From Kiritimatiellia bacterium (GTDB lineage Bacteria; Verrucomicrobiota; Kiritimatiellia; RFP12; JAAYLN01), in assembly GCA_017458965.1 (NCBI GenBank), contig JAFSZJ010000089.1:1-39373 (forward strand): a stretch of DNA of 39,373 nucleotides, in the 5' to 3' direction. This document shows positions 774-37,710 of this stretch, in pieces. The translations under genes were made by a program, and so were the position numbers. The notes beneath the pieces were generated by a model. That model searched no databases, had not been told where the DNA came from, and worked only from the letters and a program-made list of their open reading frames with translations. Each line of letters begins with the position of its first letter. Within the stretch, counting starts at the first letter, position 1.

Positions 774-3700
774 CTACTCGATTATCCGCAGCCGCAGGAA
801 GTGGATGTCGACGTCGTTGCTGTGCGAGAAGTCCTCGTTGGCGTCGCCGGACGTCGGATCCACGGTCTCCACCTCGCGCGCCGTCGGATCCAGCTGGTAG
901 AAGCCGTCGGAGAGCGTATCGGCGCCCTCGAGGACGAGTCTGCCGTTGATGCCACGACCGCTCTCAACGTCATCGCCGTCCTCGGTGCGCGTCAGCGTCG
1001 CCGTGGCATGCATGGAGGTGCCGTCGACCGAGACGGACGTTATGTTGAGCGAGTGGGTGCAGCTCCGCGCCTTCAGGTCCTGGTTGAGGAGGTAGCGGGT
1101 GTTGAACTCAGAGTCGGCCGCGGCGTTGTCGCCGAGGGCGTTGATGTCGCTCTGCGTATAACTGTTGTTGCGTATCCACGCTAGGACGTTGGCGTTCGTG
1201 ACCTCCACGCCCGACGGGGCGAAGAAGCGCGACCCGACGGGTTCGTCGTACGGCAGGTCGTCGAAGACCTGCGCGACGCCGTTGACCGCGCCCGGCGTGT
1301 GGGCGCCGGTGTACCAGTAGAAGTCATCGACCGTCGAGCCGGCGATCTGCTCGCCCGTCTCGCTGTCGGAGCGCGAGAGGAGGGAGAGGGAGTCGGCGAG
1401 GCGGTTGACCTTGCGGCCCGCGTAGGTGAAGTCCTCCCAGCCGGAGCCGGAGACATAGCGTTCGGTGCCGAACGAGACCATCTGCTCGATCGCGTTGTTC
1501 GAGCGATAGACGAGGATGCCGGCGTAGGTGCCGATGTTCTCCTTTGCCGTCGTGGCGGAGTCGGTAAAGGCCGCGTCCTCGTTGTCCATCCACTCGTCGC
1601 CCCAGACAAAGAAGCCCCAGCCGTTTCCGGTGTCGTGCGGGATCGTCGTGCCTTCCGCGACCGTGTAGGAGTCCTTGCCCCTTGCGCTGCCGACGGAGGA
1701 GCTCGTGCTTCCGGACATGCCGCCGACCATGGCGAAACGCCATCCGCCGATGTCAGTGCCGGCCGGAGCGGCGAACTCGACGTACTCCTCGGTGCCCCTG
1801 TCGGCCGTGGCCGACGAGGAGTACCAGTTGTTGATCTCGTTCACGAAGAACGTGCCGGGGGCGCATGAGTAGACCCAGTAGTACGGCGACCATCCCTCCT
1901 GGGCGTGGTCGGCGTTCATGTCGAGGTCGGACATGGTCATGCTCGACGCGTTGAACGTCTTGTACCATTCGGGGTTCTCGAAGGTATCCAGACCCTGCAC
2001 GATGGGCGGATCGCCATGCTCGATGTCGATCGCGGCGTGCCTGCCCCAGACGACGTACTCGACGATGTCGTCGATGTCGTTCGTGCCGGGGATGCCGCCT
2101 TCGGCGCGATAGACGTGGCTGTCGCCGACCTTCGCAAGCTCGACGCGGCACGACGCGTCGTTCGGGTCCAGCCAGTTCTTGTAGCCCCAGGTCTCGCCCT
2201 CGGAGTAGGTGTGCCACGAGCAGAAGATCCTGATGCCCTGCGGGTTGAGGATCTGGCGCATGATCTTCGCCTCGACCGTCGTGTTCGAACCGGCGAGCGG
2301 CTGTACCGGCGCGAGGAGGACGTACTCGAACTCGAAGGACGGGCGTGCCGGCGCGGTCACGAGAACGTCGTCGATAACGACGCGCGACCTCGTGGCGGTG
2401 TTCGTCGAGTTGTAGAAGCGCACGACGAAGTAGTCCTCCTCGAAGATCTTGTCGTTGCTGAACGGCACGAAAATGCTGCCCTCGTCGGCCGTCGCCGAGA
2501 GCGTGATGTTCGTCAGAGCCTTCCACTCGCCGTCGCCGCGCTTGCCCGGCTCGCCCTCGTATTCAGTGCCGATGACGATATTGATCTCGCCGTCGCGGAC
2601 GGTGCCATCGGCCTCCGGCACGAGGCGGTAGCGGAAGGTTATCTCGCCCACGCCGACGCCGGTGAGCGGCGGCGTCTGGAGATACGGGTTGTCCTCTCCG
2701 TACACCTCGGTGCCGTACGTGCCGTTCGTCTGGCTGTTGTTGAGGAAGCACGACTTGCCGTTGTTGTTGTAGATGAGGCCGCTGTTAATCAGCGAGTTGC
2801 CGGCGATCAGGTTCATGTTCGTGCTGTTGCCCTCCGTTATCAGGAGGTTGTAGGCGACCCAGGCGTTGCCGTTGTTGTCCGGGTAGTCCTTGGTGCGGAG
2901 GTTGTCTATGACGATGGTGGCGTCGGGATCCGTGCCGTCGCCGAGGATGCGCACCCTCACGCGGCCCGGATAGTACTTGCCGATCTTCTCGTACCGCGAC
3001 CCGGTTTCGCCGACGGCGTTCGTATAGACGGCCTTGGTGATCCACGTCGTGTAGTCGTCCTCCTCCGTGTACTCCACGGCGTAGGCGACATGCTGCCCGG
3101 CTTCACCGCCGACGGAATAGGAGAACGAGATCGAGCCGATGTGGTTCGTCATCTCGGGCGAGACGACGCCCTGGGCGAGGGCCGGATTGGCCCGCGAGCG
3201 AGTGAACTCGGCGCCGATCTGGAACGCGCCGGCGTTCTTCACGACGCCCTCGAGGACGGCCCAGTGGTCGTACATCGAATCGAACGGGAGCGTGGAGATG
3301 GTCGATTCGAGCCATGCGTCCTGCTCGGACTGCGCCTTCCAGTCGAGGTATCCGTCGGCCAGACCGCCCGCATGGAGGGAGTCGCCCTCGTAGCGGGTGA
3401 AGGCGCGCCAAGGGGAGAGGTTGACGTCGTCTATCACGACGCCACCGTCGCCATCTACGTAGCGCAGGGTGACGAACTTCCGCGCCCAGCTGTGGATCGG
3501 GAGCGTCACGTCCGAGAAGGCGAGGGAGCTGACGTTTGTCGTGAAGACGGTCGCATTTTTGAGGGAGTCGATCATCACGCGCTCCTCGTCGTCGACCACA
3601 TCACCGACGTAGATGCCGATCATCTGGTCGGGCACCTCGCGCGTGATCTGCGAGGAGGTAACGGTCCACCGGTCTTCACCGTCGGCACGCTGGCCGCCAT

Positions 3701-8354: not shown

Positions 8355-9512
8355 ATGAAACGGGCCGAGCCAACAAGACAGGAGATGCTCTGGCGCTTCA
8401 TGGAACGGCTTATCCGTCAGGAGGGAGCCGACATCGGGCAGCCAAAGTCGATTCGTTTTCTGCTTTGGTGGCTTAACCTTTTTTCAAAAGGCTATAGCGC
8501 TGTCGTGAAGGCCAGGGCTTGGCTTTACGATCATGCGTTTATGCCGCAGTTTCCCCTTGGATGCCAGGTGATAAGCGTGGGCAACGTTACCGCCGGCGGC
8601 ACGGGCAAGACCCCTGTCGTGGAGATCCTGGCGCGGACTCTGACCGAAGAAGGACGGAAGGTGGCCATACTCTCGCGTGGCTACCGCTCGAAGAAGCGCT
8701 CCGCGACAGAACGCGGACCACGCATCGTGAGCGACGGACGCCATGTTCTGCTCGACAGCGAAATGGGCGGCGACGAGCCGTTCATGCTTGCCCGGAACCT
8801 TCCCGGAGTCGCCGTGCTGGTTGACAAGGACCGCGTGAAGAGCGGACGGTATGCCGTAGCCAACTTCGGCAGCGACGTCCTGCTGCTTGACGATGGCTTC
8901 CAATACCGACGCCTCAAGCACTCGCACGAAATCGTTCTTGTGGACAGCACCAACCCGTTTTCAAACGGCCACCTGCTCCCGCGGGGCACGCTTCGCGAAC
9001 CAGCATCTCACATCAAGCGCGCCGATATCATCTTCATGACGAAGTCAAACGGGGACACGGCCTTGCTGCGGGCGCGCATCAAGAAGCTAAACCCGTCCGC
9101 GACGATAACCGAATGCCGCCACTGCCCGAAGTTCTTCAAAAACGCATACTCGGACGACCAGATTTCGCTGGACGCTTTAAACGGAAAGAAGGTGGTGGCT
9201 CTTTCAGGAATCGCCTCACCGCAGAGTTTCGAGGCCTCCCTGCAGAAAATGGGCGCAACGATCATCAGCAGGGAACGGTTCTCCGACCACTATCGGTACC
9301 GTCCGCAGGAAATACTAGATATAATCGCGGCGGCGGACGAACTCGGCGCCGATTACATCCTAACGACCGAGAAGGACGCTGTGCGTCTGCCGCATCTGGA
9401 GTCGCCAAAGGTCCCTATCTACTACATGCGGATGGAGATCGAAATACTCAATGGGTACGGTAACTTCAAGGAACTCGTTAAAAAAATATGCTTCGCGGAG
9501 AAGAATGAGTAG
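8355..9512 (+). CDS. lpxK: Tetraacyldisaccharide 4'-kinase
   Basis: LpxK phosphorylates the 4' position of the tetraacyldisaccharide-1-phosphate lipid A precursor at the inner face of the inner membrane, using ATP. The 385-residue product has the family P-loop [13 protein letters not shown] (about 75-87), with an N-terminal hydrophobic segment (FLLWWLNLF) for membrane contact. [12 protein letters not shown] and PRGTLREP are further LpxK signatures. I place the start at 8355 because a frame opening at 8268 would begin inside the AT-rich inverted-repeat region. A TATACAAT sequence at 8334-8341 gives a very short leader and there is no SD. The TAG stop belongs to GTAG, which leads straight into a heptad array and then murA. 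Confidence 0.93.
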
Positions 9513-17020: not shown

Positions 17021-17553
17021 CTGATCGACTCCATGGCGTGATTCTTCGCGAATGCGGCGGCGGCTTCGTCATCTATGTCGCCGAAGTAGCGTATGGCCCT
17101 GATGCCGGCCCCGAAGCCGGCCTCGAGGTCACGGCGTCCGTCGCCGACCATTACGCAATCCACGGGACGCAGCGACAACGCTGCCATAGTCTCCAGGATG
17201 TAGTTCGGCGATGGCTTGCGGTAGCGCGAGGGTTCGTCCGGGCGTTCCGTCGCTATGCACATGCCATCGAAGAAGGTGTCCGTGTCGCCGATGAGCTGCG
17301 ACAGGCGGGCGTTGACGGCGTTGACCGCGTCCATGCCAAAGTAGCCGCGCCCTACGCCGCTCTGGTTCGTGAAAAGGAATAGAAGAAAACCCGCCTCGCG
17401 AAGAGCGAGAAGCGTCTCGCGCACTCCTGGAAGAAGGCGCACCAGATCGGGGTCGGACACATACCCCGAGTCGTGCATCAGAGTTCCGTCGCGATCGAGG
17501 AAGATCGCGCCCGCCACCGGACCAGAAGCTTTCAATGTTTGGCCATCTGACAT
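16969..17553 (-). CDS. gmhB: GmhB-like heptose bisphosphate phosphatase (HAD IIIA)
   Basis: The product (194 residues) should remove the 7-phosphate of D-glycero-D-manno-heptose 1,7-bisphosphate in LPS core precursor synthesis. HAD motifs are FLDRDGTL (Asp20, Asp22), TNQSGVGRGYF, the YRKPSPNYI lysine and VGDGRRDLEAG. GmhB usually binds a zinc ion through a Cys/His cluster just before RKP. Here that segment is CIATERPDEPSRYRKP and lacks the cluster, so the zinc site seems lost. It is last in an operon with the heptose kinase and a nucleotidyltransferase. The gap upstream, and even its ATG, is made of heptads. The 3' end overlaps cstA. Confidence 0.82.
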   Translation of the reverse strand: MSDGQTLKASGPVAGAIFLDRDGTLMHDSGYVSDPDLVRLLPGVRETLLALREAGFLLFLFTNQSGVGRGYFGMDAVNAVNARLSQLIGDTDTFFDGMCIATERPDEPSRYRKPSPNYILETMAALSLRPVDCVMVGDGRRDLEAGFGAGIRAIRYFGDIDDEAAAAFAKNHAMESISYFGSLLDCVRLPRTNT

Positions 17554-17695
17554 CTCAAATCTCAGATTTCAGATCTCATAATTTCTCCCGATCCCATCTT
17601 TTATCTCTCATCTCCTATCTCCCATCTCTAATCTCTAATCTCTTATCTGTTATCTGTTATCTGTTATCTGTTATCTATTATCTATTATCTGCTTT
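17552..17695 (-). repeat. Heptad array T6 filling the kinase-gmhB gap
   Basis: About twenty 7-nt units with one small break near 580-590. On the plus strand, from 17592: TCCCATC, TTTTATC, TCTCATC, TCCTATC, TCCCATC, TCTAATC twice, TCTTATC, TGTTATC four times, TATTATC twice. Nearer gmhB the units are ATCTCAA, ATCTCAG, ATTTCAG, ATCTCAT. On the coding strand this is AGATAAT/AGATAAC after the kinase gene, and it provides the kinase stop codon and the last codons (ADNR). The gmhB ATG falls inside the other end. Confidence 0.85.
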
Positions 17696-25263: not shown

Positions 25264-26307
25264 ATGGCACACGTGAACAAAAACGGCGAGGTCTGGGTCT
25301 TCGCGGAGCAGGAGGACGGATCCTTCGGCAACATCCCGTTCGAACTTCTCGGCAAGGGACGCGAGCTTGCGGACAAATTGGGCGTGAAGCTCGGCGCGGT
25401 GCTGATGGGTTCCGGCGTCGAGCCGCTCGCCGCGGAACTTGGCGCCCGCGGCGCGGACCGCGTACACCTCTTCGACCATCCTCGTCTCGCCCGCTACCAG
25501 ACGGCGTCGTATTCCCGTCTCCTCGCCGACGCCATCCTCGCCGATGAACCGCAGATATGCCTTTTCGGCGCGACGCCGACCGGGCGTGATCTCGCCCCGA
25601 CCGTGGCATCGTCGCTCCGCTGCGGCCTCACGGCGGACTGCACCGACCTCCAGATCGGCTCCTACGACGATCCGGTCGCCAAGGAGACATACGAAGGCGT
25701 CCTGCACCAGATACGCCCGGCCTTCGGCGGCAACATCATCGCAACGATCGTCAACCCGCGCGACTGGCCGCAGATGGCGACCGTCCGCGAAGGCGTCATG
25801 AAACCGCTCGCGTCCGACCCGTCCCGCAAGGCGGAGATCGTCCGGCGCGACACGTCCGCCCTTGACGCGATGGAGCTTCCGACCGAAGTTCTGGACGTCG
25901 TCCGCAAGGTCAAGACCGTCGATCTCGCCGGCGCGCGCATAATCGTGGCCGGCGGCGCCGGCGTCGGCTCCAAGGAGAACTTCGGCCTTCTGCGCGAACT
26001 CGCGGACGCGCTCGGCGGAGCGGCCGTCGGCGGAAGCCGCGCGGCGTGCGACCTCGGCTATCTGCCATCCGATTGCCAGATCGGGCAGACCGGCACGACG
26101 GTTCGCCCCGCCCTCTATGTGGCGTGCGGCATATCCGGCGCCGTCCAGCATGTCGCCGGCATGCGCGACAGCGCCAAGATCATCGCCATCAACACCGATC
26201 CGTCCGCACCGATATTCTCGGTCGCCCACTACGGTATCGTCGGCGACCTGCGCAAGGTCATCCCGATGCTTGTAGCCTCGCTGCGGGAGCCGCAGCGAGG
26301 CAGATAA
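25264..26307 (+). CDS. etfA: Electron transfer flavoprotein alpha subunit
   Basis: The 347-residue alpha subunit carries the FAD-binding C-terminal domain: IVAGGAGVGSKENF, then GQTGTTVRPALYVACGISGAVQH and IIAINTDPSAPIF, all strongly conserved. AAGGA 8 nt before the ATG supports the start. It forms an operon with etfB and probably with the downstream acyl-CoA dehydrogenase. The last residues (ASLREPQRGR) and stop are encoded by a REP-like hairpin and the first heptad, so the original C-terminus seems to have been overwritten by the element; the family usually ends near LIPAL/ELKK-type residues. Confidence 0.94.
   Translation: MAHVNKNGEVWVFAEQEDGSFGNIPFELLGKGRELADKLGVKLGAVLMGSGVEPLAAELGARGADRVHLFDHPRLARYQTASYSRLLADAILADEPQICLFGATPTGRDLAPTVASSLRCGLTADCTDLQIGSYDDPVAKETYEGVLHQIRPAFGGNIIATIVNPRDWPQMATVREGVMKPLASDPSRKAEIVRRDTSALDAMELPTEVLDVVRKVKTVDLAGARIIVAGGAGVGSKENFGLLRELADALGGAAVGGSRAACDLGYLPSDCQIGQTGTTVRPALYVACGISGAVQHVAGMRDSAKIIAINTDPSAPIFSVAHYGIVGDLRKVIPMLVASLREPQRGR
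26272..26301 (+). repeat. REP-like GTAG hairpin inside the 3' end of etfA
   Basis: GTAG (26272-26275) overlaps a perfect 12-bp stem: GCCTCGCTGCGG (26275-26286), loop GAG, CCGCAGCGAGGC (26290-26301). AGATAAC heptads start on the next base, as after dnaN. The stem sequence differs from the dnaN and transposase copies, but the order of parts is the same. Confidence 0.72.
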
Positions 26308-26434
26308 CAGATAACAGATAACAGATAACAGATGAGAGATAATAGATAACAGATAACAGATAACAGATAGGAGATGAGAGATAGGAGATAGTGGTTAGGG
26401 ATCAGGGATTAGTGGTTAGTAGATAAGAGATGGG
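26302..26434 (+). repeat. Heptad array T7a (AGATAAC type), etfA-acd gap
   Basis: Nineteen units in perfect 7-nt register with no indel: AGATAAC four times, AGATGAG, AGATAAT, AGATAAC three times, AGATAGG, AGATGAG, AGATAGG, AGATAGT, GGTTAGG, GATCAGG, GATTAGT, GGTTAGT, AGATAAG, AGATGGG. The first unit carries the etfA stop. The word drifts in the same order as in the array after dnaN. Confidence 0.92.
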
Positions 26435-26440
26435 CGGGAA

Positions 26441-26648
26441 ACGAACTAACGAATCAACGACGCAACGGATAAACGGACCAACGGATAAACGGACCAACGG
26501 ACCAACGGATAAACGGATAAACGGACCAACGGATAAACGGATAAACGGACCAACGGATAAACGGACCAACGGATAAACGGACCAACGGATAAACGGACCA
26601 ACGGATAAACGGACCAACGGATAAACGGATAAACGACGCAACGAACGA
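26441..26648 (+). repeat. Octamer array T7b of 26 exact 8-nt units
   Basis: Twenty-six 8-nt units without a single indel. Three edge units (ACGAACTA, ACGAATCA, ACGACGCA), 21 central units that are all ACGGATAA or ACGGACCA in mixed order, then ACGACGCA and ACGAACGA. The final A is the A of the acyl-CoA dehydrogenase ATG, so the array is the whole 5' UTR and no SD exists. The opposite strand is open in all frames (RLSVGPFI-type octapeptides), but I do not call a gene there. Confidence 0.93.
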
Positions 26649-28327
26649 TGAACTTCTTCACGGACAACGACGACATCTCCCTGGCCCTTTCGCTCGCGGA
26701 CATGGAGCGCCTTGCGACCCTCTCCGAGCATGGCTTCTGCTTCGCAAAGGATTTCGACTGGGCGCCGAAGGATGCGGCGGACGCCGCGGACAGCTATCGG
26801 CGGGTACTTGAGCTCGTCGGCGAGATCGCCGCGGAGCGCCTCGCCCCGACCGCGGCCGAGACCGACCGCAACGGCTCAGTCCTCGGCGACGACGGGCAGG
26901 TCCATTACGCCAAGGGCATTCGCGAGGCGATAGACCTCTTCGGCAAGGCCGGTCTCATGGGCTTCACGCTCCCGTACAAGTACGGCGGCCTCAACATGCC
27001 GGCGACGCTCTACACGGCCGCCACGGAGATAGTCAGCCGCGCCGATGCCTCGTTCATGAACATTTTCGGGCTCCAGGGGATCGCCGAGACGATAAACGCC
27101 TTCGCCTCCGACGAGCTCAAGGACGCCTACCTGCCCGACCTCGCAGCAGGGCGTACGACCGGCGCGATGGTCCTCACGGAGCCTGACGCCGGAAGCGACC
27201 TTCAGGCAGTCGCAACCCGCGCCTATATCGCGGACGACGGCGAGTGGCGCGTGAACGGCGTCAAGCGCTTCATCACCAACGGATGCGGCGACGTCCTGAT
27301 CGTGCTCGCCCGCACCGAGGAAGGCTCGACGGACGGGCGTGGTCTCTCCTGTCTCCTCGTCGAGAAGGGGCCGCGCGTCCGCGTCCGCCGCATCGAGGAC
27401 AAGCTCGGCATCCATGGAAGCCCCACCTGCGAGATAGTCTTCGACGACGCCCCGGCAAAGCTCATCGGCCTGCGCCAGCGCGGCCTCATCACCTATGTCA
27501 TGTCGCTCATGAACGCGGCCCGCCTCGGCATCGCCGCGCAGAGCCTCGGCATAGGCGAAGCCGCCCTTCGCGTCGCCACCGACTACGCGAAGGAGCGCCG
27601 CCAGTTCGGAGCGGCCATCGCCACCTTCCCGGCGATCGCCGACCTCCTTTTCACGATGTCGTCCGACCTCCAGGCCGCCAGGGCCATCACATACTACGCC
27701 GCCGTCTGCGTCGATCTCGAGCGCGGGCTCGAGGACAAGCAGCAGTCTCGCAAGTACCGCAACTTCTGCAAGCTCCTCACACCGATGGCGAAATACTACT
27801 CGTCCGAGATGTCGATGCGCGTCGCAAACGGCGCCGTCGCCGTCCTCGGCGGAAGCGGCTACATGCGCGACTACCCGGCAGAGCGCCTTCTCCGCGACAG
27901 CCGCATAACGACCATCTACGAGGGCACCTCGCAGCTCCAGATCGTCGCCGCGTCCGGCGGCGTCCTCGGCGGGACGCTCAAGGAGGCTGTCGAGGATGTG
28001 CTCGCGTCGAGGGAATGGGACGAGACGCTTGCCCCCGAAGTCGCCAAGGTCCGCGAGGTCGTCGCGCTCATCGACGAGGCCGTCGCATTCGTCAAGACGC
28101 AGGACGCCGCCTACCGCGACCTATCCGCACGCCGCCTCGTCGATATGTCCGCCATCGCGCTGGCCGGTGCGCTCCTTTGCGCCCAGGCCGCCGTATGCGA
28201 ACAGAAGAAACGCATACTCTCGCGCTGGATGCTCGAAGGCGTTGCAAAGGCAAAGGCGATGCACGCAATCGTCGTCAGCGGAGACGCGGCGCCGATTGCG
28301 CCGCAGGCGGACGCAGAAAGTAGATAA
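26648..28327 (+). CDS. Acyl-CoA dehydrogenase, long form
   Basis: A 559-residue FAD enzyme that oxidises acyl-CoA to enoyl-CoA and passes electrons to ETF; its partner genes etfBA are directly upstream. The ACAD fold is complete: an N-terminal helical domain, MVLTEPDAGSDLQAV near residue 175, GVKRFITNG, then RRQFG and the catalytic-base region IYEGTSQLQ with Glu425 in the position used by short- and medium-chain enzymes. The C-terminal ~120 residues form an extra helical domain found in long ACADs. There is no SD; the ATG abuts the octamer array. The final residue and stop (SR then TAA) come from the following heptad array. Chain-length preference cannot be read. Confidence 0.92.
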   Translation: MNFFTDNDDISLALSLADMERLATLSEHGFCFAKDFDWAPKDAADAADSYRRVLELVGEIAAERLAPTAAETDRNGSVLGDDGQVHYAKGIREAIDLFGKAGLMGFTLPYKYGGLNMPATLYTAATEIVSRADASFMNIFGLQGIAETINAFASDELKDAYLPDLAAGRTTGAMVLTEPDAGSDLQAVATRAYIADDGEWRVNGVKRFITNGCGDVLIVLARTEEGSTDGRGLSCLLVEKGPRVRVRRIEDKLGIHGSPTCEIVFDDAPAKLIGLRQRGLITYVMSLMNAARLGIAAQSLGIGEAALRVATDYAKERRQFGAAIATFPAIADLLFTMSSDLQAARAITYYAAVCVDLERGLEDKQQSRKYRNFCKLLTPMAKYYSSEMSMRVANGAVAVLGGSGYMRDYPAERLLRDSRITTIYEGTSQLQIVAASGGVLGGTLKEAVEDVLASREWDETLAPEVAKVREVVALIDEAVAFVKTQDAAYRDLSARRLVDMSAIALAGALLCAQAAVCEQKKRILSRWMLEGVAKAKAMHAIVVSGDAAPIAPQADAESR

Positions 28328-28412
28328 CAGATAATAGATAACAGATAACAGATAACAGATAATAGATAATAGATAGCAGATAATAGATGATAGATGGTGG
28401 ATGGCGGAGGAT
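28320..28412 (+). repeat. Heptad array T8 (AGATAAC type), acd-tRNA gap
   Basis: GTAG (28320-28323) runs into thirteen units from 28322: AGATAAC, AGATAAT, AGATAAC three times, AGATAAT twice, AGATAGC, AGATAAT, AGATGAT, AGATGGT, GGATGGC, GGAGGAT. The first unit holds the TAA stop of the acyl-CoA dehydrogenase. A perfect 7-bp hairpin (GCGGCGC-CGATT-GCGCCGC) lies about 20 nt earlier inside the gene. Confidence 0.88.
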
Positions 28413-31427: not shown

Positions 31428-34046
31428 TCACAACGCATCCGCCGCAAGTGCCTGGCGGACGCGCGGGAGGTCGTCGGAGCGCGTCTGCGCGAGCGTGGCC
31501 GCGACGCTTGCGCCGTAAATGGCGAGAAGAGCCAGCGCGCATACGGCGATGGCGCGAATGGCGCCACGGAAAACCGATGGTCTCCGACCGACCACCGCGA
31601 GCACCGCCGCAGCGAACCAGAAAGCGATCCAGCCTATGGCGGCGATGTCGATCCTGGTCGCGAGCGATGGTCCGTAGTGCCATGCAAGAAGAGTGCGAGA
31701 CGCCGGGAGGGTGCCGGGCGCACCTTCCTCCGAAAGCGACGCCTTCATGGAGTTGGCTACGGACATGGGCGTGCCAAGGCGTCTTCCGGCGGCGACGAAC
31801 GCCTCCATTGCGGCCCCCTTACGCCCGGCCAGAAGAAGCGCCACCCCCAGGTTGTAGTCAAGCGCCCCGGATCCGTAGCCGTTCTCGCGCATCGCGAAGT
31901 AGATGCGGGCCGCGTCAAGGAACTCTTCTTCCGTGGCGGCCGTGGACATGGCCTGGGTCGCGCGCTCCCATTCGAATGTGGGCGGAGGCTGCGACGCGGC
32001 TTCGGCACACCCTGCGCCAAGCAGCGTCACGGACAGTACCACCGCCAACGCGCCAAGACGCCGCGTGGCCGCATCGATGGCCTTGCGCAGACGCATGACC
32101 GCATCGACGACCGAAGACTTATCGGCCGCGCCGGACGCGTACGAGAGCCGCTCAAGATCCGAGAACGAATCGACCAGATCACGGATCTCGCCATCCGCGA
32201 CCGAATGCTTCGTCAACGCCGAGGCTATATCGTCGGCCGACGGACTCGCCGTGCGCATCCGAAGCCGCGCCGAGAGCGCCTTCCTCGCGGCTCCGATGGC
32301 CTTCGACGCCGCCAGGGCGGGATCCGACTCCGCGAGCGCAAGCGCCCGCGACATGTCGCCGGTCGAGCGCGAGGAGCGTTCGCGCAGCGCGGACGCGGCG
32401 CGAACGGCAAGCCTCCTGAACGGACGGACTAGCGCGCATAGCAGCCAGAGAAGCGGCGCGACGATGAGCAGCGGGCGCATCCGTCTGTCCGCGATGAAGT
32501 GTGGCCGCGTGTCCGCCGGTGAGAGGATTATTCCGTCCGGCAGCAGCAGCGCCGCCGACGATTGGGCGTCGCCCTCCTCGCCCATTGACGAGGATGCGGC
32601 GATGCGGGTGGTCTCCTCGACCTGTAGCGGCATGGGGTCGGTGGCGACAGTGACGTATTCCCGCCTCTCGGTGTCGTAGTAGGCCAGTCGCACAGCCGGG
32701 AACTCAAGCGTTCCTGAGACTATGGGGCGGACGCGGTACTTGAAGCGGCGGCCATTCTCGATCGGTTCGGTCTCGACGTTCTCGTCGTAGAGGCGGAAGG
32801 CCTCGGCGGCCTCCGCTTGCAGGGCGAGGACCGGTGGCCGGAGATTCGAGAGGCTGAACTCCCCATCGACGTCGATGGATAGCGTGAGCGGATCGCCCAC
32901 TTTGCAACGCGCCGTGTCGAAAGAAGCGCGGGCGCGCATGGACTTGCCAACAGGTCCCACGAACCAATCCGGGCGTCCTTCCTCCGGCGGCGGCTCCACG
33001 CGCACCGTCGCAGCTGGTCCGATCACGAACACCTCGTCAAGCGTCGCCTCCATCCTGTCGTTGACAGCTACGATTATCTGCCCCTTTAGGGTGGCCGGTC
33101 CGAATGTGTATGTGCCTTCGGCCTTCGGCGTATACGGGATCTCCACGGAGTATTCGTACACGAACGCATCGCCCGACTTGACGCGGGTCGGCGGCAACCG
33201 GAAGTCGATGGCGCGTCCGAAGACGTCCGCGAAGGAGTTGATAGTGAACGACGGCGAACGACCGCTGAAAAAGGTGTCTCGCGGAGCGAAGCGGCCAAGG
33301 ACGGTGTTCGAGTCCGGGCGCGACAGCCCCTTGGTCTCGTCCTCGGAGAGATACGCGGCGTCGATGTGCGGTGGTCGGCCGGGGAAGAGCGGCTCCACAC
33401 CCTGTCGCGGCTCCTTGATCGATACGACCATGCGTATCTTGAACGGCTCGTCCACGAGGACGCTTTCCTTGGCGCACTCGATGCGCACCGAGATGTCGTC
33501 GCGCGCCTCCACGCCGGAGACGGACACCCTGATGCCCGGGGCGCGGACGATCCCGCCAGGCGTAGTCATCGTAACCTCGCCCGTGTCGAATACGCCGGCT
33601 TCGCTCGGTGTCGCGCGGAAGACGAACGTCCGCCCCTCGTAGGAATCGACGGTCATCTTCCCGTTGATGATGATCGTCGAGCGTCGTGTCTCGTCGCGGG
33701 ATGTCACGTACTCGATGCCGTCCGGGTTGGCGAAGGCCGGGATGTTCGATCCATCCCTTGTGCCGGATGCCGCCACCTGGATAACGACCGACTCGCCAAG
33801 ATAGATTCGTTGGCGCTCAGCCGAGACACGGAGCGAGACGGACGAGGGGGAGGCGGCGAGGAGGAGGGGAGAGGATAGCAGATAGCAGATAGTAGATAGC
33901 AGATAGCAGATAACAGATAATGGATAACAGATAACAGATAATAGATAACAGATAACAGATAATAGAGGGGGGCGCGGGGAGAGGGGGGATGGGTGGTTTC
34001 TCATCCTCTTCAACTCATCAACCAATTTCCGACCCAAACCCGCCAC
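31428..34046 (-). CDS. batD: BatD-like protein fused to a BatE-like TPR lipoprotein
   Basis: An 872-residue envelope protein resembling BatD of the Bacteroides aerotolerance operon. The periplasmic part (about 65-520) has repeated Ig-like beta domains, such as VSLRVSAERQRIYLGESVVI. A membrane helix follows near 520-540 (LLIVAPLLWLLCALV). From about residue 651 the sequence looks like a second protein: MRLRKA, a hydrophobic stretch, the lipobox LLGAGC (Cys680) and a TPR-like YNLGVALLLAGRKGAAMEAF, then two C-terminal helices. That is BatE-like, fused in frame. Residues 28-58 are LLSVICY-type heptapeptides encoded by a heptad array and form the N-terminal export/membrane segment. A GTG start at 34046 has AAGGGG upstream; an ATG 14 codons in is an alternative. 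Confidence 0.75.
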   Translation of the reverse strand: MAGLGRKLVDELKRMRNHPSPLSPRPPLLSVICYLLSVICYPLSVICYLLSTICYLLSSPLLLAASPSSVSLRVSAERQRIYLGESVVIQVAASGTRDGSNIPAFANPDGIEYVTSRDETRRSTIIINGKMTVDSYEGRTFVFRATPSEAGVFDTGEVTMTTPGGIVRAPGIRVSVSGVEARDDISVRIECAKESVLVDEPFKIRMVVSIKEPRQGVEPLFPGRPPHIDAAYLSEDETKGLSRPDSNTVLGRFAPRDTFFSGRSPSFTINSFADVFGRAIDFRLPPTRVKSGDAFVYEYSVEIPYTPKAEGTYTFGPATLKGQIIVAVNDRMEATLDEVFVIGPAATVRVEPPPEEGRPDWFVGPVGKSMRARASFDTARCKVGDPLTLSIDVDGEFSLSNLRPPVLALQAEAAEAFRLYDENVETEPIENGRRFKYRVRPIVSGTLEFPAVRLAYYDTERREYVTVATDPMPLQVEETTRIAASSSMGEEGDAQSSAALLLPDGIILSPADTRPHFIADRRMRPLLIVAPLLWLLCALVRPFRRLAVRAASALRERSSRSTGDMSRALALAESDPALAASKAIGAARKALSARLRMRTASPSADDIASALTKHSVADGEIRDLVDSFSDLERLSYASGAADKSSVVDAVMRLRKAIDAATRRLGALAVVLSVTLLGAGCAEAASQPPPTFEWERATQAMSTAATEEEFLDAARIYFAMRENGYGSGALDYNLGVALLLAGRKGAAMEAFVAAGRRLGTPMSVANSMKASLSEEGAPGTLPASRTLLAWHYGPSLATRIDIAAIGWIAFWFAAAVLAVVGRRPSVFRGAIRAIAVCALALLAIYGASVAATLAQTRSDDLPRVRQALAADAL
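33873..33963 (+). repeat. Heptad array T9 inside the batD-like coding sequence
   Basis: Thirteen units in exact register on the plus strand: GGATAGC, AGATAGC, AGATAGT, AGATAGC twice, AGATAAC, AGATAAT, GGATAAC, AGATAAC, AGATAAT, AGATAAC twice, AGATAAT. The gene is on the other strand, which reads TGTTATC and has no stop in any frame, giving repeated LLSVICY. Here the array lies before a gene and in the opposite sense to the 3'-end arrays. Confidence 0.92.
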
Positions 34047-34068: not shown

Positions 34069-34135
34069 ATCCCTAAACAACTATCCCCTAACGACTAATC
34101 TCTAACCACTAACCACTCTGTAGTCGCGACTACAG
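34069..34135 (-). repeat. 18-bp palindrome and heptad array T10 after the esterase
   Basis: A perfect palindrome CTGTAGTCGCGACTACAG (34118-34135) contains the esterase TAG stop as part of GTAG. On the minus strand it is followed at once by heptads: AGTGGTT twice, AGAGATT, AGTCGTT, AGGGGAT, AGTTGTT, TAGGGAT. It is the same palindrome-then-array order as after dnaN and etfA. The words match the late, drifted part of the other arrays. Confidence 0.8.
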
Positions 34136-34870
34136 CCCCATCCAGTCGATGGCGCTCCTGAAGCACACGTCCCAGAAATCCCAGCTGTGGGAACCCGGGC
34201 GTTCCTTGTACGTGAGGTCAACGCCAAGGGACCGGGCGAGATCGCGGAACTTCACGTTCGCGTTGTAGAGGAAATCCTCGGTGCCGCATTCCTGGTACAG
34301 GCGCGGGAGCGCCACCCCGTTCTTCACGTTGTCGCGGAGCAGGGCCAGCACATCCTCCCGACCGTCGGTCGGATCGGCGTTGCCGAAGTCGGTCAGGATA
34401 TCCGTGACGCCAGCCTTCTCGTAGTCCCGGTAGAAGGCACCGACATCGAGGACGCCGGAGAAGCTTGCGGCGGCGGCATAGCGGTCGGGATGGTGCAACG
34501 CCAGCTTGAAGGCGCCGTAGCCGCCCATAGAGAGTCCCGCGATGAAGTTGTCCTCGCGGCGGTCGGAGAGCCGGAACATTGACCGGGCTATGGCGGGAAG
34601 TTCGTCCGCTATGTGCGTCTCGTAGCGTAGCCCGCCTGGCACGTCGCAGTAGAAGCTGCGTGCGCCGTCCGGCATGAAGACCGCCACGTTCCTGCCATCC
34701 ACGTAGCGCTCGATAGCCGTGCGCCTAAGCCATATCGTGTTGTCGTCGGAAAGCCCGTGCAGAAGCCATAGCACCTTGAGCGGCTCTTTATGCTCCTGCG
34801 GCATGATCGCGTACATCGACCCGACCTTGCCGATGACGATCGAATTGAAGCTTATCTGAAGAAACGCCAT
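34130..34870 (-). CDS. Esterase of the esterase D / feruloyl-acetyl esterase type
   Basis: A 246-residue alpha/beta hydrolase (CE1/esterase D-like). The nucleophile elbow is GLSMGG with Ser114, the acid is probably Asp199 in ECGTEDFLYN and the base His228 in GSHSWDFW. LLHGLSDDNTIWLRRT near residue 37 forms the oxyanion region. No signal peptide is seen. Relatives remove acetyl or feruloyl groups from plant polysaccharides or hydrolyse S-formylglutathione; the sugar context favours the former but the substrate is inferred. AAAGGACAGG upstream supplies the SD. The stop lies inside a palindrome. Confidence 0.85.
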   Translation of the reverse strand: MAFLQISFNSIVIGKVGSMYAIMPQEHKEPLKVLWLLHGLSDDNTIWLRRTAIERYVDGRNVAVFMPDGARSFYCDVPGGLRYETHIADELPAIARSMFRLSDRREDNFIAGLSMGGYGAFKLALHHPDRYAAAASFSGVLDVGAFYRDYEKAGVTDILTDFGNADPTDGREDVLALLRDNVKNGVALPRLYQECGTEDFLYNANVKFRDLARSLGVDLTYKERPGSHSWDFWDVCFRSAIDWMGL

Positions 34871-37618: not shown

Positions 37619-37710
37619 CGTTAGGCGATTTGACGCAATTCCATTAGGTGATTTGACGCAATTTCGTTAGGCGATTTATCGCGATTCCGTTATGCGATCT
37701 AGGACTTTGC
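37619..37710. repeat. 23-bp iteron-like tandem repeat upstream of the ATPase
   Basis: Four consecutive units in exact 23-nt register at 37619, 37642, 37665 and 37688. The core is NRTTAGGCGATTTGACGCAA-like: units 1 and 2 differ at four positions, unit 3 has TTATCGCGA instead of TTGACGCAA, and unit 4 keeps only CGTTATGCGAT. The array starts 40 nt from the ATPase ATG. Its period fits two helical turns, as in iterons or operator arrays. Confidence 0.8.

Follow-up and report, generated by a model that had tools for sequence, protein, structure and literature searches.

At the locus considered here, a tandem array of 7-nt units lies within the N-terminal coding part of a BatD-like gene of a Kiritimatiellia bacterium (assembly GCA_017458965.1, contig JAFSZJ010000089.1; the window denotes the whole stretch of DNA that was analysed, 39,373 nucleotides). 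This raises the question whether, as an earlier note on this DNA had suggested, intergenic repeats have turned into coding sequence that makes up the BatD export segment, or whether the array is a 5' leader, a genetic switch, or the result of misassembly or decay. The following features are referred to in the text:

31428..34046, minus strand: BatD-like open reading frame, 872 amino acids from GTG 34046 (Pfam BatD, PF13584, E=1.4e-15; homologues in 69/76 genomes)
33874..33966, plus strand: 7-nt tandem array, AGATARY units head to tail (TRF score 116; unit list; head-to-tail gradient)
34002..34004, minus strand: sole in-frame ATG upstream of the array, preferred start; leader MRNHPSPLSPRPP-(array)-SSPLLLAASPSS (scan of five starts)
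33849..33872, minus strand: non-repeat candidate c-region SPLLLAAS (residues 59-66), which separates the array from the conserved mature domain (translation)
31431..33848, minus strand: conserved mature BatD body, homology from residues 68-72 (tblastn with relatives; alignment)
33774..33776, minus strand: GTG, first in-frame start codon after the array, whose use would remove the invariant first strand (start scan; alignment)
34076..34117, no strand assigned: second, weaker 7-nt tract of AACCACT units in the leader between the esterase stop and the BatD start (TRF score 42)
34130..34870, minus strand: upstream neighbour, putative esterase (Pfam PF00756), marking the intergenic border

Array, reading frame and translation start of the BatD-like gene

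The array (period 7, 13.3 copies, 88% matches) reads AGATARY on the plus strand with stops in every frame; its minus strand is open in 3/3 frames and encodes (LLSVICY)n, including variants such as PLSVICY and LLSTICY, so that the claim of a complement free of stops in any frame and yielding a cyclic LLSVICY peptide was confirmed by translation. Any stop-free 7-mer is open in all frames and gives one cyclic peptide; the unusual trait of the batD array unit is not this openness but its hydrophobicity (heptamers both stop-free and at least as hydrophobic make up 1.75% of all heptamers). For the array itself chance is no issue, because about 50 similar arrays are present in the genome and none in five same-family genomes. 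Its units are ordered, five of AGATAG type being followed by eight of AGATAA type, and degenerate: identical neighbours never occur more than two in a row.

The PF13584 match of the reading frame reached 58.1 bits against a cut-off of 24.1 (the count of genomes searched for homologues includes the own genome), and the frame is intact across 872 amino acids with codon use of coding type. Counted from GTG 34046, the array corresponds to residues 28-59, or to about residues 14-45 if BatD starts at ATG 34004. The Kyte-Doolittle profile over 19 residues peaks at residue 28 (2.29), and values above 1.9 recur only in segments starting at 525, 799 and 825, so that nothing else in the first ~500 residues is as strongly hydrophobic as the array-coded part; the previous statement that the array makes residues 28-58 and the sole N-terminal hydrophobic segment thus held.

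Five in-frame start codons were found upstream of the array (34046, 34037, 34025, 34013 and 34004), and the other two frames contain none. A clear Shine-Dalgarno sequence was not detected ahead of any of the five candidates; 60% of the genes in the genome have none before their first ATG. We prefer ATG 34004 as the most likely start; it would give MRNHPSPLSPRPP as the positive n-region, the array as the h-region and SSPLLLAASPSS as the c-region of a predicted signal, the SPLLLAAS stretch after the array representing a plausible predicted cleavage region. A lipoprotein signal was rejected on inspection of the sequence, which revealed no lipobox. Between the array and the conserved domain, no ATG, GTG or TTG is present in frame, and a downstream start was rejected: the first candidate, GTG 33776, would delete the invariant R, Y, G and S residues that were located by an alignment of seven BatDs within the first 20 residues of the mature body. 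Since all usable starts lie upstream of the array, standard initiation with no frameshift would necessarily carry translation of BatD through it. The position of the array, its open frame and the lack of a later standard start are direct observations.

In tblastn comparisons with relatives (those named were mostly Kiritimatiellae or Lentisphaerae metagenome bins), BatD homology starts at query residue 2-6, i.e. about 10 residues past the array (residues 68-72). As is likewise observed directly, the homologues possess ordinary signal peptides that end where the array-coded part ends: in one same-family genome (L040) the leader reads MLRFSLTAALLLTAAQALATGD followed by VSLNLRVD (also given as MLRFSLTAALLLTAAQALATGD followed by VSLNLRVDRPRIYLGES), and similar leaders are found in L044, L047, L048 and L051. 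The own BatD has the array in the place where other BatDs have their leader. An N-terminal hydrophobic segment ahead of the first conserved BatD strand is accordingly present at the right place, is array-coded and represents the predicted export segment. A downstream start with its own signal peptide, which the earlier note had named as evidence against its reading, was absent for BatD, although such a start does apply to three other genes of the genome (see below).

As start codons occur in just one of the three frames entering the array, a change by one unit would silence BatD; the frame logic behind the former suggestion that the gene could be phase-variable, in which slippage by one unit turns BatD off and three units change the leader by seven residues, is therefore sound. 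A rescue after unit loss by starts in the other frames was considered and rejected, frames 0 and 1 having no start codon upstream of the array. Leader-coded switching repeats are known from opa (PMC5354566) and heptanucleotide switches from Haemophilus (PMC2651432). However, the long uniform tracts of Haemophilus differ from the degenerate units of batD, BatD is widely conserved (69/76 genomes), and the array family adjoins genes of all kinds, mostly after stop codons, with no connection to surface switches. Switching itself is thus unsupported, and we consider a phase-variation switch very unlikely at this locus.

Arrays of the same family elsewhere in the genome

A search of the own genome located the array in about 42 places, and a census of the fetched stretches yielded 51 distinct arrays above threshold (weak arrays may be missed, as the census covers the stretches around search matches). 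No AGATARY-type array was matched in five genomes of the same family, which suggests that the array family is young or restricted. The assembly of the own genome is 63% complete and fragmented, many of its contigs end in arrays, and genes were called by a simple codon-usage script. Among the arrays outside genes for which the gene on the 5' side is known, 37/39 lie 3' of that gene on its strand, 31 of these 37 within 30 nt of the stop codon or overlapping it; of the arrays inside predicted ORFs, 6/7 run antisense and close to the 5' end. In either placement the array head points away from the abutted ORF (outward polarity). AGATAG-type units amount to ~50% in the first three units and to 13-18% in units 7-10 (counted without the batD array), and the batD array exhibits the order of this head-to-tail gradient together with the outward polarity. 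Several genes end inside the first array units and carry array-coded tails in consequence (QIADNR, QMIDSR, QIVDSG).

In the window, the stop codons of the genes for ETF alpha and acyl-CoA dehydrogenase are overlapped by arrays (26302-26392 and 28315-28405); the TAA that ends the gene belongs to an AGATAA unit. A dispersed sequence around ATGAGTTTTGTCGTCCGCGCCCTGTCGCGGAC occurs 3' of many array tails (e.g. L106, L111, L114, L119) and G+C-rich inverted repeats are frequent ahead of the array heads; judged from this tail flank and the inverted repeats, the arrays look as if they were part of a composite 3'-end element. In L098 (G000:C63), an array and its flanking gene are present twice in one contig as an inverted copy, which is probably a palindromic assembly artefact. 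A 23-nt tandem repeat at window 37619-37698 starts four bases ahead of where an AAA_14/DUF4143 gene is predicted to begin.

Five predicted ORFs carry an antisense array at their 5' end. In three of them (LptF, HemW, L111) a likely genuine ATG follows just after the array, which is only a 5' leader there; this downstream start is backed by the domain position in LptF and HemW, while L111 has a signal-like N-terminus of its own. BatD might similarly start at a non-canonical codon inside or after its array, but none of the three standard start codons lies between array and domain, and a start after the array would leave a member of an exported family leaderless; with these points set against the three genes, such a start appears highly improbable. 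The two ORFs without a start after the array are batD and a TPR-like gene (L091:4606-5940), in which the array is followed by LFSLSPLPSHAQTARPQ (also given as SLSPLPSHAQTARPQ) with no start codon between. Five homologues of the TPR-like protein were found; their leaders are ordinary, and the HAQT junction recurs in two of them. This second case in the genome is a direct observation as well, and by prediction the genome holds two array-coded signal cores, those of BatD and of the TPR-like protein.

Repeat DNA is also read within conserved proteins. A glycosyltransferase (L088:2422-2456, gene 1391-3346), a protein of two domains with matches in 40/40 genomes, contains a 35-residue in-frame insert that consists of the array (open strand) and another repeat and is absent in ten relatives; the second repeat flanking the insert encodes GNGERETGNGK. 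In MreC (L116:9141-9182, gene 8459-9451), an in-frame insert of ~48 residues in the barrel core, absent in 13 relatives, is composed of six sense-direction array units and (CCAACGGA)n coding NGPTDQRT. In this direction every third unit would place a TAA in the MreC frame, and exactly those two units are AGATAT and read TAT; T at that unit position was found in 12/390 units elsewhere (both T by chance, p ~0.001). The two TAT units are the strongest direct sign that selection has kept an array open for translation. The CCAACGGA repeat family, again coding NGPTDQRT, was also seen inside the predicted ORFs L190:2261-3766, L191:1050-3239 and L193:529-2316, one of which resembles beta-ketoacyl synthase, and forms a 24-nt array at window 26439-26629.

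An assembly artefact in which the array joins unrelated DNA, or a decaying, leaderless batD pseudogene, would be compatible with the frequent coincidence of arrays with contig ends and with an esterase upstream neighbour that was not seen beside batD in relatives. However, missing synteny says little, as the gene neighbours of BatD are not conserved even among same-family genomes having BatD. VWA genes beside BatD were not found in the same-family genomes G001 and G003 and are present in L074, which belongs to a more distant family. Among the scanned window neighbours of batD no batA/batB VWA genes were detected; the batA/batB gene order is a usual, not strictly defining, feature of BatD. Synteny was also discarded as proof of the assembly across the array, being uninformative where BatD neighbours vary between genomes. 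In addition, the batD array keeps the unit gradient of the family end to end, the reading frame is intact and of coding type throughout, the array head would remain connected to batD even if the far end were wrongly joined, and the TPR-like gene is built alike. We regard artefact or decay as a very improbable explanation.

Probable recruitment of repeat DNA, and leader repeats in the wider group

The best explanation, to which we assign a probability of roughly three in four, is that an array of a dispersed, lineage-specific 7-nt family became coding and supplies the predicted core of the Sec signal or anchor of BatD. This reading is based on the start of homology about 10 residues past the array, the lack of a later usable start, the ordinary leaders of the homologues and the second gene built alike; it is further supported by repeat DNA that is coding elsewhere in the genome (glycosyltransferase and MreC inserts), by the unit gradient and outward polarity of the batD array, and by the repeat-rich BatD signal segments of the wider group (see below). 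The central claim of the earlier note, that intergenic repeat DNA became coding and forms the BatD export segment, is hence well supported, the export being predicted from sequence.

The following course of events is proposed. Family arrays sit against ORF ends with fixed outward polarity, and at batD the array head directly abuts the mature coding region; the original BatD leader was most likely replaced by, or lost against, the adjoining array. As the strand toward batD (TTATCTG/TGTTATC) is stop-free, ribosomes that initiate upstream, most likely at ATG 34004, would run through the array, and any upstream start in the right exit frame would generate a hydrophobic leader, since a stop-free 7-nt unit corresponds to one cyclic peptide. 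The array would then act as the hydrophobic core of a Sec signal (peptide or anchor), with PLLLAASPSS behind it as a short c-region of ordinary type. Unlike the direct observations above, export of BatD by the array segment, cleavage of this segment, and replacement rather than overgrowth of the original leader are inferences; the segment may be a cleaved signal peptide or an uncleaved anchor, both being possible. Several points count against repeat recruitment: the array-coded hydrophobic stretch (~35 residues) exceeds the usual length of a signal peptide, a clear Shine-Dalgarno sequence is lacking at the candidate starts, the fragmented, 63% complete assembly has array-ended contigs, and the N-terminal repeat excess in relatives is not specific to exported proteins.

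Of 48 non-redundant BatD homologues with a defined mature start, 17 contain a tandem repeat of period 5-12 within 100 nt before the mature part (in some of the 48 the repeat may precede the true start), versus 34/875 (3.9%) internal 100-nt windows (odds ratio 13.6; Fisher p 3e-11, an optimistic value as the homologues are related). The leader repeat units differ: 7-nt AGATAAC in the own genome, 9-nt TCGATTCTN coding SILSIPSIL in several cases, and 8-nt TTCGTGTC. In G003, the leader repeat of BatD is a dispersed element with 54 copies in the genome. The G003 element comprises 44 nt, encodes TGILPVFHGRDAHAT, and lies at G003:C303:14687-14730 in the N-terminal coding part of BatD; a second copy, at 17518-17561, occupies the corresponding part of the gene that follows. 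For G010 and G019, a dispersed family was rejected as the source of the 9-nt leader repeats: just 2-3 pattern matches per genome were obtained, so that these repeats are mostly local to the leader. N-terminal repeats in relatives were found in 22/123 genes of the hydrophobic class versus 9.0% internally and in 14/107 of the soluble class versus 5.9% internally, the soluble-class excess possibly arising in part from over-long predicted starts. An enrichment specific to exported proteins was consequently rejected, the excess being about twofold in both classes alike; it may reflect a general leniency of the N-terminus and not a process specific to signal peptides.

We propose only tentatively, and with less than even odds, that Kiritimatiellae-like bacteria as a group routinely rebuild signal peptides from whichever short tandem repeat adjoins the gene. 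If true, satellite DNA would continually provide material for novel export signals, and conserved proteins, MreC among them, would tolerate in-frame insertions of repeat tracts as well; repeat-coded leaders are then predicted to be common among the exported genes of the lineage. The origin and turnover of signal peptides have mostly been inferred from laboratory selections of random peptides; the own genome offers natural cases with an identifiable DNA source, since the repeat persists in dozens of other places. A literature search retrieved no paper on heptanucleotide repeats with signal peptides, on the TGILPVFHG repeat, or on tandem repeats of Kiritimatiellae.

Comparison with known repeat systems

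The closest parallels are the leader repeats of Neisseria opa with regard to function and the heptamers of Xanthomonas and Nostoc with regard to placement. In opa, CTCTT coding repeats in the leader peptide form a 5-nt tract which has been proven to switch a surface antigen (PMC5354566). Like opa, the batD array is a short tandem repeat with a unit that is not a multiple of 3, in the leader-coding part of a gene for an exported protein, and in both a change of unit number shifts the frame. Unlike the opa tract, it is degenerate, has a 7-nt unit, belongs to a family dispersed between genes and lies in a conserved gene, and nothing observed points to switching: the near-perfect tract able to slip in opa-type switches has no counterpart in its degenerate units. 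The second gene and the other inserts suggest general recruitment of repeat DNA rather than a switch.

As reported for Xanthomonas and Nostoc, the heptamers GGGAATC and GGGGA(C/T)T are dispersed and near ORF ends, in sense orientation up to 50 bp after stop codons or antisense up to 50 bp before an ORF; they are G-rich and quadruplex-forming, 7-11% of the Xanthomonas heptameric repeats overlap genes, and a hydrophobic reading as a signal peptide is not described in the passages considered (PMC4692102). The AGATARY arrays resemble these heptamers in their 7-nt unit, dispersion, location near ORF ends and fixed polarity in both placements; they differ from them in that the AGATARY unit lacks a G tract.

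Rickettsia palindromic elements and other repeats are inserted in frame in proteins, the former as single palindromic elements. The glycosyltransferase and MreC inserts are likewise repeat-derived DNA within conserved proteins, but consist of direct tandem 7-nt or 8-nt arrays and form no palindrome or hairpin. Finally, in the classic work on yeast invertase, random sequences reportedly acted as secretion signals under laboratory selection. Such work would explain, by analogy, how a hydrophobic peptide of arbitrary sequence can function as a leader, and batD would be a natural case in which this peptide was provided by a repeat family.
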